From NCBI RefSeq assembly GCF_008727925.1, contig NZ_VTWT01000006.1:310001-374000 (forward strand): a stretch of 64,000 nucleotides of DNA, in the 5' to 3' direction. The notes under the pieces are model-generated. The model saw nothing but the letters and a program-made list of their open reading frames with translations. It was not told the origin of the DNA and did not search any database. Source of the stretch: Adhaeribacter soli. GTDB lineage: Bacteria > Bacteroidota > Bacteroidia > Cytophagales > Hymenobacteraceae. Shown piece by piece: positions 46,262-53,405 of the stretch. A program made the translations under genes and the position numbers. Each line of letters starts with the position of its first letter. Position 1 is the first letter of the stretch.

Positions 46262-46728
46262 TAATGTGCTAATTGTTTAATGTGCTATTGTGCTAATTTG
46301 GTAAGGTGGTAATTTGGAAATTGGGTAATGATTGATTCGAATAATCCCTTTAGCCTATTAGCGAAGTAGCGTAGGGTTTAAACCCAATGCTGTCAACTTA
46401 AGGAATTATTGCTCTTTCAGACATCTATGTCTGAAAGTAACTGCCGGGGACATCCTTGTCCCCGTATCCATACACGCGGACAAGGATGTCCGCATCAGAT
46501 TTCGTTTCGGACATAGTTGTCCGAAACAGCGATACCAGTTAATATAAATACTTAAGTTGATGGCATTGGTTTTAAACCCTATGGTACTGAGAAAATTTAT
46601 GATCTTATTCCATTTTCCGATTAACCTACGACTCCTGAAATAATAATTAAATTAATCATTTAACCCATTCACCCTATTTACAACTCCAACACATTATCAC
46701 ATTACCATATTAAGAAATTAGCACATTA
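46262..46728. other. 467-base spacer between topoisomerase IB and the kinase-like gene
   Basis: No gene; entirely made of nested inverted repeats and palindromes. The left edge has AATGTGCTAATT-type direct repeats and the right edge their inverted copies. Confidence 0.75.
46414..46527. repeat. Array of four palindromes with shared GACA-N4-TGTC core
   Basis: Hairpins at 46414-46437 (10-bp stem, loop TCTA), 46445-46464 (8 bp, TCCT), 46476-46493 (7 bp, AGGA) and 46504-46527 (10 bp, TAGT). All keep GACA before and TGTC after the loop, while the outer arm bases differ from copy to copy and remain perfectly complementary. Centre spacings are 29, 30 and 31 bp. No open frame crosses it. Confidence 0.9.
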
Positions 46729-48318
46729 TCAAAGTCCTTCCCGGTCATAAGCATGAATGGCTACGTCTTTGCTGAGTTTCTTTTTGATCTCTGGCGTTAG
46801 CTCCATCTGGATGCCGCGCTTGGTGTCGTAAACTTTAATATTCCGGTTGGAGCCGGAAATCTTAGAAGTATCGGTTAACTCATCTTCGCCTTCGCCGCCG
46901 TATACGTTCAGGCGGATTGCTTTCCGGGCCTGGCCGCTTATTTCAAATTCATCGTTTCCGCCGAGGCCGTGCAGGGTAATGGCATCGGTTTCATCCGGGT
47001 GAAAGGTGCGGCTGTAAAAAGGTTCTTTCTCTTTGGAGCCTTTGCGAAATACTTCCACTTTGGTTTCGCCGGAAGGCAGGCGGGTCGCCTTAAATATTTC
47101 CGGTTCGTCGCTGCCGGCCACGGTTACATCCTCGGCCAGGATCTCGTAAATTTTAGCGGCGGCTTGCGGAAGTTTATCACGGCGACTCTTCAATCGGAAA
47201 ATGGTAACCGGGCCGGTTTTGGCGTAGATCGGAGCCGGCAATTCCCTGAAAGCCCGCTCAATTACGTCATCGGTTAAAGCAGCTTTTATTTCTTCAGCAT
47301 GCCGGACCCATTCGGCTTGGGTAACCTCATTTAAGGCGCGGGCATCGATGAAACGCGCGTTAAAAAGCCAGCCGGGCAGGTAGCCGTAATCTTCATGAAA
47401 AGTCTGGAATTTTTTAAGCAGCAGGCGGTTACTGGCCAGCCAGGTAATAATGCCGTCCTCGAAACGGTAAAAAGTCTGGTCGCGGTCTTTGGGTACCGGT
47501 TTGTACAGGGTTTGGCCGTCATTTTTATACACCGCCCATTGCCACTGGCCTTCGTGCCGGTCCCAGTCACCGATCAGGACATCGAAGAGGCGGCTCCGGG
47601 CAAAAAGGCTTTGGTCGATCTGGTAATTATTCTTTTCGAAGCGGTTCAGCAGCATTTCTTCGCTGTCTACCAGATCGGTGGCATTGCCGAACATCGGCGT
47701 CAGGTTTTGCTTGCCGTCGAATTTTTCTTCCAGCAGCATCACTTTCCCGTTTATGCGTGGAGAAAATTTTCCGAAGGTGCTGTCGTTTTCGGTTACATAG
47801 TAGATTGCCGGACTGGTGTAAAAGATACCGGCTGCTTTGGAAAGGTCAGGTAATACCAACGGAGCAAACGGATTGGCAGCGGAGGTCTGGTCGCGGACCA
47901 CATTTACCACGAAGGATTTGCGAAGCCCTTTGGGCAGCGTTTTCTGGGGATCTTTGTCCAGGGAGCGGAGTACGTATTGCTTGCCGGTTTCTGTTTTTAA
48001 CGTAAGGCTGGTGGTCTGAAAGCCGCCGCCAAGCGAAACCGGCGAGAGGCCGCCCTGCGCTTCCTGCATCCGGAAAACCGGAAGCTTTACCGGGGTAGCC
48101 CAAAGTTCGCGGTAATGTTTGCCGAAGAAAAGCCGTTGTAAAAAGCCCTTGTCATAATGGCGGCCAACGGTTACAGTTACGCTGTCGGGAATATTTCCGG
48201 AGGCAATTTTTTCTTTTTCAGCCTGATCCACAAGGGCTGTTTTCTGAAAAAAATTAGACCGGGCACAGCTTAGGCAAAAACTCGAAACAAGAAATAAGAT
48301 AAGGATGGACCTTGGCAT
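46729..48318 (-). CDS. Exported kinase-like protein (unknown family), copy 1
   Basis: 529 residues. The N-terminal hydrophobic segment ends in CLSC (possible lipobox), so it is probably exported. The core carries, in order, motifs like those of atypical kinases of the HipA/Fam20C group: GGGFQT loop (97-102), VLRSLDKD (116-123), hinge-like VMLLEEKFDG (193-202), GDWDRHEGQW (250-259; Asp253, His255) and KDRDQTF (277-283). After residue 300 it has a helical region (RRDKLPQAAAKIYEI) and a C-terminal beta part with GGNDEF and GGEGEDEL repeats. I infer a kinase fold from these motifs; I do not recognise a named family. A paralogue lies at 51867-53405, where the DRH of the loop is changed. Monocistronic, convergent with topoisomerase IB. 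Confidence 0.75.
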   Translation of the reverse strand: MPRSILILFLVSSFCLSCARSNFFQKTALVDQAEKEKIASGNIPDSVTVTVGRHYDKGFLQRLFFGKHYRELWATPVKLPVFRMQEAQGGLSPVSLGGGFQTTSLTLKTETGKQYVLRSLDKDPQKTLPKGLRKSFVVNVVRDQTSAANPFAPLVLPDLSKAAGIFYTSPAIYYVTENDSTFGKFSPRINGKVMLLEEKFDGKQNLTPMFGNATDLVDSEEMLLNRFEKNNYQIDQSLFARSRLFDVLIGDWDRHEGQWQWAVYKNDGQTLYKPVPKDRDQTFYRFEDGIITWLASNRLLLKKFQTFHEDYGYLPGWLFNARFIDARALNEVTQAEWVRHAEEIKAALTDDVIERAFRELPAPIYAKTGPVTIFRLKSRRDKLPQAAAKIYEILAEDVTVAGSDEPEIFKATRLPSGETKVEVFRKGSKEKEPFYSRTFHPDETDAITLHGLGGNDEFEISGQARKAIRLNVYGGEGEDELTDTSKISGSNRNIKVYDTKRGIQMELTPEIKKKLSKDVAIHAYDREGL

Positions 48319-51866: not shown

Positions 51867-53405
51867 TTGACAAAATTCGTACAGTTTTTATTCCTCGCCT
51901 TTTTTATCAGTTTCCCTGCCGTTATTGCCCGCGCGTTTCCCGCCGATACTACGGTAGTGGCAGGGAAGAAATATGATAAAAGCTTTCTGCATCACCTCTT
52001 CTTTGGCAAGCACTACCGCAAGGCCTGGGCCGAACCGGTAACGGTAACATTTCTGAACCTGCAAACCGAAGCGGGTGGCTTAAAACCGTTTCTGAAAGGA
52101 GGTTCCTACCAAACCAAAAATCTGCGCATGGTCAATCCGGAAGGGCGCGAATATGTGCTGCGTTCTATCGATAAAGATCCGAGCCAAAGCCTTTCGCCGG
52201 AGGTCCGGAATTCGATAATTGGCCGGCTTGTCCGCGACCAGACCAGCGTGATCCATCCGTATGGCGCTTTTATTGTTCCGCCCTTGGCCAAAGCGGCCGG
52301 TATTTACCATACCAACCCAAAGCTTTTTGTGGTTCCCGACGATCCGGCTTTGGGGGAGTTCCGGACGGAGTTTGCCAACATGTTGGTATTGCTGGAGGAA
52401 CGGCCCGAAGGTGACCAACGGAATGCGGAGAATTTCGGCAATTCGGAAGAAGTGGTAAGCTCCCGGAAAATGTTCGGTAAACTGGTAGCCGACAACAAGA
52501 ACCGGGTAGATGCCCGGGCGTATTTGCGGGCGCGGTTATTCGACATGTGGATCGGGGATTGGAGCCGGCGCGAAGACCAATGGCGCTGGGCTTCTTATGA
52601 ATTGCCCGGAAAAGGCCGGAAATATGTGGGAATTCCCCGCGACCGGGACCACGCTTTTTTCAAGTTCGACGACGGCATCATTACCTGGCTGGCCAGTAAA
52701 TATTCCAATAACCTGCAGTCGTTCGGGAAAAATATTAAAAACCTGGACGGCCTGAATAAAACCGCGGCACCCATGGATAATTCCTTACTGGTTTTCCTTA
52801 CGCGCGAAGATTTTAAGCAGATCGGCGACAGCCTGAAAATGCAGCTTACGGACGAAGTGATCGAAAACGCCGTTCGGAGCTGGCCGCCTAATATTTACGC
52901 CTTAACCGGAAAAGAATTTGAAAAGAAGCTGAAAAACCGCCGGGATCAGTTACCTAAAGTGGCGGAAAAGTATTACGAAATACTGGCCAAGGACGTAAAA
53001 ATTCCCGGAACCGACGAAGAAGAGATTTTCCGGCTGACTTATAAAGGCAAAGAGCTTTTAGTGGAAATGCTGCGGCCGGCCAAAAAAGATAAACCGGAAC
53101 AGTTAATTGCCAGCCGCACCTTTAAACGTTCCGAAACCAAAAAACTGAAAATCTATGGCTTAGGCGACGAAGACCTTTTTGAAATAAGGGGAGAAGGTAA
53201 AACGGTAAAAAGAGTGCGCCTTTACGACGGCGAAGACCAGGATAGCGTGAGTTTCAGTGCCACGAAGATCCGGAGAATTAAATTTATGGATTCCGGCGAC
53301 GGCAACATGGTTCCAAATGCCAAACTGCTGAAAGTAATCCCGTACGATCCCAAAGCCGACGAATTCAGCGGCGATGGCTGGTTGCTCCGCCATAGACTTT
53401 ATTAG
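51867..53405 (+). CDS. Exported kinase-like protein (unknown family), copy 2, degenerate loop
   Basis: 512 residues; translation starts with TTG at 51867, placing a Sec signal peptide (KFVQFLFLAFFISFPAVIARA) at the N-terminus. It aligns over its whole length with the 46729-48318 protein: GGSYQT (78-83), VLRSIDKD (97-104), MLVLLEERPEG (172-182), PRDRDHAFF (257-265) and DGIITWLAS. Unlike copy 1, the loop is GDWSRREDQW (230-239), replacing DRH by SRR, so a catalytic role is doubtful. The rest ends with the beta-rich GLGDEDLFEIRGEG and YDGEDQDSVSF. Same unknown family as copy 1; it could be an inactive partner or a binding protein. Monocistronic, divergent from fhs. Confidence 0.75.
   Translation: MTKFVQFLFLAFFISFPAVIARAFPADTTVVAGKKYDKSFLHHLFFGKHYRKAWAEPVTVTFLNLQTEAGGLKPFLKGGSYQTKNLRMVNPEGREYVLRSIDKDPSQSLSPEVRNSIIGRLVRDQTSVIHPYGAFIVPPLAKAAGIYHTNPKLFVVPDDPALGEFRTEFANMLVLLEERPEGDQRNAENFGNSEEVVSSRKMFGKLVADNKNRVDARAYLRARLFDMWIGDWSRREDQWRWASYELPGKGRKYVGIPRDRDHAFFKFDDGIITWLASKYSNNLQSFGKNIKNLDGLNKTAAPMDNSLLVFLTREDFKQIGDSLKMQLTDEVIENAVRSWPPNIYALTGKEFEKKLKNRRDQLPKVAEKYYEILAKDVKIPGTDEEEIFRLTYKGKELLVEMLRPAKKDKPEQLIASRTFKRSETKKLKIYGLGDEDLFEIRGEGKTVKRVRLYDGEDQDSVSFSATKIRRIKFMDSGDGNMVPNAKLLKVIPYDPKADEFSGDGWLLRHRLY

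Follow-up and report, generated by a model that had tools for sequence, protein, structure and literature searches.

A predicted kinase-fold lipoprotein of Adhaeribacter soli, its degenerate paralogue and their Omp85-fused relatives

What might a protein with kinase-like motifs do outside the cytoplasm of a bacterium, and is it a kinase at all? This question is raised by W1, a gene in a window of 64,000 nucleotides (the whole stretch of DNA analysed here) from Adhaeribacter soli. W1 (46729 to 48318, minus strand, ATG start) encodes 529 residues, and the original prediction described it as an exported protein with HipA/Fam20-like kinase motifs in an unrecognised family. From the open reading frame, an AlphaFold2 model and fold matches, it is described here as a kinase-fold lipoprotein. 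Taken as a whole, our explanation is that W1 would be an atypical kinase outside the cytoplasm with a pseudokinase as its partner, and would descend from a system of kinase, phosphatase and barrel; we give this slightly better than even chances.

Export signal and predicted fold

The N-terminus of W1, MPRSILILFLVSSFCLSC, is a signal peptide (residues 1-18; 48265 to 48318, minus strand) that ends in CLSC with a lipobox-like Cys18, in agreement with the claim of export. The 33 distinct W1-type N-termini listed all have the pattern C-A/V-R/K/H at the identical place, and acidic residues that would mark surface export, as they do in Bacteroidetes lipoproteins, are absent from them. Given this pattern without acidic residues, the simplest guess is a periplasm-facing outer-membrane lipoprotein, and the sequence makes the periplasmic side a likely location.

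W1 matched none of the Pfam families at E 10 and no NCBIfam model, and a search of 65 aligned members against Pfam gave no meaningful match (best E 0.015, scattered); as far as Pfam and NCBIfam are concerned, the family is indeed an unrecognised one. Its kinase-fold domain, of about 320 residues, is widespread in Bacteroidota without having a Pfam model. Of 395 Bacteroidota genomes sampled, 142, about a third, contain a relative (E 1e-5 or better); in the window's own family, Hymenobacteraceae, every one of 45 sampled genomes does. Copy numbers in both samples are lower bounds. Thirty relative loci were found, mainly in Adhaeribacter, Rufibacter and Hymenobacter. Four of the five plasmid records with a relative call the protein "hypothetical protein", and in the fifth it is unannotated. 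A phage or viral origin was considered and rejected: among 38 pattern matches in viral_contigs there were no relatives. The window's genome also holds a further paralogue (L035, G000:C13:147199-148263), which keeps DRH, has one in-frame TAG and lacks the C-terminal part. No paper on the W1 domain was among those listed from the PMC literature, a coverage outside which most subscription-journal papers and preprints lie. As far as the literature searched shows, three things are new: the family, its occurrence within Omp85 proteins and a conserved pair of intact and degenerate copies; the fold is already known.

Structure prediction followed by a fold search had been suggested as a check on the kinase reading, and the result is a confident, kinase-like fold, not an unrelated one. 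The AlphaFold2 model, based on a 65-sequence alignment, reaches a pLDDT of 90.8 and a pTM of 0.91. Its strands and helices follow a kinase-like order: strands 92-97 and 104-108 flank the glycine-rich loop, and are followed by strand 114-119, helix 136-145, strand 193-198, helix 236-248, the catalytic loop, two strands and the DRD segment. The kinase-fold domain comprises residues 78-396 (47131 to 48087, minus strand), the range covered in the alignments with CotH, CtkA and PI4KII. Foldseek against the PDB placed CtkA first (E 3e-5), followed by PI4KII-alpha (1.1e-3), the HipA/HipT-type structure 7vkb (2.1e-3) and other kinases. In VIA-align, PI4KII-beta (Z 14.6, 255 residues, rmsd 4.7) and CotH (Z 14.4, 256 residues, rmsd 4.1; model residues 78-392 against residues 1-358 of 5jd9, nearly the whole chain) are tied as the best folds, CtkA has a Z of 13.3 and HipA of 10.6-11.3, and essentially all of the matches listed are kinase-type folds. 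By sequence, a PDB profile search with the family gave CtkA as third match, in the register GNFDRHNGNW (E 0.58). Structure comparison on the predicted model thus finds a two-lobed protein-kinase-like fold, and we regard it as almost certain that W1 carries one. Of the two families named at the outset, HipA is among the nearest folds, together with PI4KII, CotH and CtkA; Fam20C, like all Fam20 structures, is absent among the 50 Foldseek and VIA-align matches listed.

A shared fold alone is no proof of function, and W1 differs from each of these known systems. CotH (PF08757) resembles it over the whole chain, and the D-x-D metal segments align. However, neither W1 nor the 65 members match PF08757, the catalytic loop reads DWDRHxxQW, and relatives of W1 are fused to a phosphoesterase and an Omp85 barrel; no CotH was found in the window's own genome. 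CtkA and HipA are kinases that phosphorylate proteins. The HipA/HipT/CtkA group (PF07804 and relatives; Z about 10.5-13.3) has an N-x-D-x-H type loop, a hinge and a +5 Asn/Gln in register with W1, but a HipA_C match is absent for W1 (at E 10) and for the 65 members, and W1 is an exported lipoprotein rather than a cytoplasmic protein. No toxin-antitoxin setting was seen for W1, and no HipA was found in its genome. Type II phosphatidylinositol 4-kinases have the highest Z, yet W1 is a bacterial envelope protein, PF00454 (PI3_PI4_kinase) is matched neither by it nor by the 65 members, and that family was found in none of 198 Bacteroidota genomes. As for substrates, CotH phosphorylates spore-coat proteins, according to the pertinent part of PMC7821199.

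The C-terminal all-beta domain (residues 397-529; 46732 to 47130, minus strand) gave a pLDDT of 78.8 when modelled alone, and had no confident match among solved structures (best Foldseek E 0.29; best VIA Z 4.1). It contains two GG-(x)-D turns, HGLGGNDEF and VYGGEGEDE, which recall calcium-binding RTX repeats, and in an alignment of 129 rows its columns 456 and 479 are conserved as Asp.

The putative active site

The five motif strings on which the original prediction was built are present in W1 in the order it gave, and its numbering of Asp253, His255, Asp278 and Asp280 is correct. GGGFQT opens the glycine-rich loop GGGFQTTSLTLK (residues 97-108; 47995 to 48030), and VLRSLDKD (116-123) lies in the beta-3 strand YVLRSLDKD (115-123; 47950 to 47976), with Arg118 at the position of the VAIK lysine. 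These are followed by the hinge segment LLEEKFDG (195-202; 47713 to 47736), the catalytic loop GDWDRHEGQW (250-259; 47542 to 47571) and the metal-binding segment KDRDQTF (277-283; 47470 to 47490), all on the minus strand.

Do these segments fall where a kinase would need them? Profiles of the family were aligned by HHalign with those of three kinase families, from which short sequences had been dropped (28 of 30 CotH, 29 of 30 HipA and 19 of 24 APH sequences were kept). Each score exceeded those of all 40 column shuffles: 39.0 against at most 23.0 for Bacteroidota HipA, 30.5 against at most 22.6 for CotH and 27.9 against at most 21.7 for APH. The corresponding probabilities are modest or low despite the shuffle test (50.6, 10.6 and 7.4 percent), and that for CotH shifts with the alignment, from 21.2 to 7.4 after cleaning and realignment and to 10.6 in the shuffle test. 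In these alignments LLEEKFDG lies on the HipA hinge (FMTKRFDR) and DWDRHEGQW on N-x-D-x-H-x-x-N, PKDRDQTF lies on PYDYDNTL of CotH, and in APH the nucleotide loop and the basic residue of beta-3 are matched by GGGFQT...YVLR. Asp253, Gln258, Asp278/280, Arg118 and the LEEK segment thus come to stand on active-site positions, that is, on the HipA, CotH and APH residues that we take to be catalytic. This also answers the doubt about where the aspartates lie, which are found in the catalytic-loop and metal-site columns. The register with HipA points to Asp253 as the catalytic aspartate and to Gln258 as the +5 metal ligand, and the usual kinase set is present in W1: a catalytic Asp, an Asn/Gln at +5, a downstream metal Asp and a basic residue on beta-3. 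The pocket geometry itself is inferred from alignments. In W1, Asp253 and Asp278 are 25 residues apart; in CotH, as given in part of PMC7821199, Asp228 and Asp251 are 23 residues apart and both are required.

Conservation was counted over aligned domain rows of more than 300 residues (129 rows, at least 7 of them the same gene fetched twice; rows of less than 300 residues were dropped). Asp251, Asp278 and Arg279 are present in all 129 rows, Asp280 in 128, Glu197 in 126, and Arg118 and Lys122 in 127 of 128; when the 493 columns are ranked by conservation, Asp251, Asp278, Arg279, Asp280, Arg118 and Lys122 are all within the first 17. Position 258 is Gln in 120 rows and Asn in 9. Such near-invariant columns across 129 rows argue that the motifs exceed chance. 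Position 253 has D in 88 rows and S in 39, and at position 255 there are 95 rows with H and 33 with R; in the tree these replacements are restricted to defined clades. Asp251 occupies the position that is usually Asn in N-x-D, and it might take part in catalysis, in which case the paralogue described next might be active too.

A degenerate paralogue

W2 (51867 to 53405, plus strand, TTG start) encodes an exported protein of 512 residues with 41 percent identity to W1, from which it is separated by 3.5 kb containing other genes. Its catalytic loop, GDWSRREDQW (52554 to 52583), reads SRR instead of DRH, so that the catalytic Asp and His are replaced, while the glycine-rich loop, the Arg, the Lys and the DRDH segment (in PRDRDHAF, 52635 to 52658) are retained. 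W2 alone had no match in the PDB, and a dGTPase or TraG identity, suggested by weak NCBIfam matches far below the cut-offs, was rejected.

The pairing of the two genes is a constant feature. A W2-type copy lies upstream on the opposite strand in all 28 standalone loci fetched (L001-L028), and at least 33 of the 45 own-family genomes have a W2-like copy, each adjoining a W1-like copy, divergently in 29 cases and in tandem in 4 (a count read by eye from listed matches, with some sequences checked). The four tandem copies read DWSRH, an intermediate state. At L159 the W2-like copy is broken, and at L157 there is only a remnant. In some Hymenobacter-type loci (L021-L024 and L168) there is a third copy, also standalone, which reads DWDRHxGQW and has GGGFN for GGGFQ, so that their clusters comprise two intact copies and one degenerate copy.

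How did the pair arise? A tree was computed without the catalytic columns from the 80 rows that remained once closely similar copies at 19 loci, repeat entries of a gene and rows with more than 45 percent gaps had been set aside. The SRR rows form one clade (support 99), the SRH rows another (100), both together a third (93), and the W1-type rows a clade of their own (100), in which DRH is kept in 26 of 26 rows. This structure points to one ancient duplication that gave an intact copy and a Ser253 copy; judging from these sequences, the loss of the His in the W2 line is later than the Ser253 change in most lineages. Where it can be measured, pairwise omega lies at about 0.06-0.22 for W2-type genes, comparable with that of W1-type genes; many of the pairs have saturated synonymous sites. 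From the low omega, the W2 copies are therefore to be seen as working genes under purifying selection and not as debris. A kinase homologue without catalytic residues that is kept by selection is a pseudokinase by definition; W2 has these properties, and is a probable pseudokinase partner of W1.

The Fam20 proteins, which contributed to the first reading of W1, return here in another role. Fam20C and Fam20A resemble W1 and W2 in the idea of an atypical kinase that is exported and whose paralogue is a pseudokinase, and section 13 of PMC7948968 states that Fam20A activates Fam20C and that its residue loss is a change of Glu to Gln. W2 is unlike Fam20A in that it lacks the catalytic Asp and His, not a Glu, and W1 has neither a Fam20C match in Pfam at E 10 nor any sequence match to it. 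That W1 and W2 form a regulatory pair is a reasoned guess from the gene pairing and the Fam20A-Fam20C precedent, perhaps a little short of an even chance. The conserved pair could offer a bacterial model for pseudokinase regulation.

Fused relatives and possible function

What company does the domain keep elsewhere? Long relatives (1247-1376 residues) contain Metallophos PF00149, the kinase-fold domain and an Omp85 barrel in that order (6 of 6 scanned), those of 880-934 residues have the kinase-fold domain and Omp85 and no PF00149 (2 of 2 scanned), and L029 and L030 agree in part with these layouts. Among 150 matches listed, 95 have at least 1100 residues, 43 have 800-1099, one has 622 and 11 have fewer than 600; with architecture tallied by length, most proteins that contain the W1 domain have the metallophosphoesterase-kinase-Omp85 layout. 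One genus is different: at L166 and L170, from two of its genomes, the kinase-fold lipoprotein, Metallophos and Omp85 are encoded by three separate genes in a row. Those of L166 share 41.5, 23.7 and 30.6 percent identity with their parts of the fused L040, and those of L170 match the L166 genes. Fused in most and split yet adjacent in one genus, the three modules provide a natural test of partnership. Asp253 is absent from two fused copies, L034 in the genome of the window and one copy at L029, and both have lost the phosphoesterase core GNHD too, which is kept in 24 of 26 other distinct fused copies. The two lie in one clade (97 support), so that the joint loss counts as a single event. Whether kinase and phosphatase are coupled in this envelope system is, in our estimate, evenly balanced.

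The fused relatives share their PF00149 and Omp85 layout with the "Metallo" and "noNterm" classes of Omp85 proteins (Heinz and Lithgow 2014), to which they were matched by architecture; W1 and W2 differ, with neither PF00149 nor the barrel found in either chain by Pfam. PF00149 of Omp85 proteins was taken for a metalloprotease in the portion of PMC4104836 that deals with it, and the word "kinase" is absent from that paper's main text. The kinase fold of the part of about 500 residues between PF00149 and Omp85 is new.

Putting these points together, W1 would carry its protein-kinase-like domain on an outer-membrane lipoprotein and hold a nucleotide between the glycine-rich loop, Arg118/Lys122 and the DRD segment. 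Asp253 would serve as the catalytic aspartate, with Gln258 and Asp278 (or Asp280) as metal ligands, and a phosphoryl group would be moved onto an envelope target. The kinase module would act as writer and a calcineurin-like phosphoesterase as eraser, both attached to an Omp85 barrel of the outer membrane, whether in one fused chain or from neighbouring genes. From this system W1 and W2 may derive: in the window's bacterial family the standalone duplicate would have split, W1 keeping and W2 losing the catalytic residues, and W2 would most likely bind and tune W1 or the target of W1, in the manner of Fam20A with Fam20C. Since no expected residue is missing from the W1 clade, catalysis is likely, and phosphotransfer by W1 may be called fairly probable. 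All of this suggests phosphorylation outside the cytoplasm in these bacteria. If the enzymes are active, such phosphorylation would be routine in Bacteroidota, a phylum to which gut symbionts belong, and it could then be tested what donates the phosphate there. More speculative, and on balance doubtful, is a phylum-wide system with kinase, phosphatase and Omp85 in one chain, writing and erasing phosphate at the outer membrane, to which one lineage has added a kinase-pseudokinase pair as an independently evolved counterpart of Fam20C-Fam20A.

Could the acceptor be a small molecule or a lipid instead? W1 would then be a phosphotransferase or nucleotidyl-transferase acting on a phosphoinositide-like lipid, lipid A or a glycan, or would scavenge phosphate together with the phosphoesterase. 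That PI4KII is the top Z match, tied with CotH, fits this idea, but the protein kinases CotH, CtkA and HipA are equally or nearly as close in fold. One relative is divergent from a PAP2-CotH-Porin_O_P gene row, and the phosphatidate phosphatase APP1 is a conserved neighbour of W1, occurring near the relative L167 of another bacterial family as well. Around W1, topoisomerase IB (26 of 29 loci), APP1 (25 of 29; the window is counted in both), an M48 peptidase and others recur; however, these neighbours, APP1 included, belong to the general synteny of related genomes, an operon logic was therefore rejected, and the neighbourhood is given little weight. This alternative is rather improbable.

The chief difficulty for a kinase reading of W1 is the phosphate donor, as the periplasm is not known to contain ATP. 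An extracytoplasmic place without a known ATP supply would suit a protein in which the kinase fold is kept to bind a ligand or to act as a scaffold within an outer-membrane Omp85 machine, with no phosphate transfer by W1 or W2, and so would the conservation of W2-like copies without the catalytic Asp and the barrel, not the phosphatase, as constant partner in the members of about 900 residues. For a pure scaffold, however, DRH in 26 of 26 W1-clade rows and the other near-invariant active-site columns would be superfluous, and we consider it improbable, at roughly one chance in a handful. Chance motifs in an unrelated fold are very improbable: the sole single-sequence PDB matches of W1 were HDAC6 chains (best E 0.0027, residues 240-284, probably via the DWDxH string of HDACs), but an HDAC6 identity was rejected when the match was lost with the family profile, and the predicted fold and all structural matches listed are of kinase type.

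Some further observations around these genes may be recorded. Downstream of W1, the window contains repeated inverted segments at 46440-46545 (GGGGACATCCTTGTCCCC, GCGGACAAGGATGTCCGC and TTTCGGACATAGTTGTCCGAAA), seen by eye. The gene row mentioned above lies in genome G019 (L154, 3664-6669, minus strand), where a PAP2 phosphatase, a CotH kinase and the phosphate-selective porin Porin_O_P stand divergent from a kinase-fold and Omp85 gene. In two bacterial families, HD and PycTM (Pycsar effector) genes lie beside or near kinase-fold Omp85 genes (L161, 2967-4262; L154, 9933-11162).
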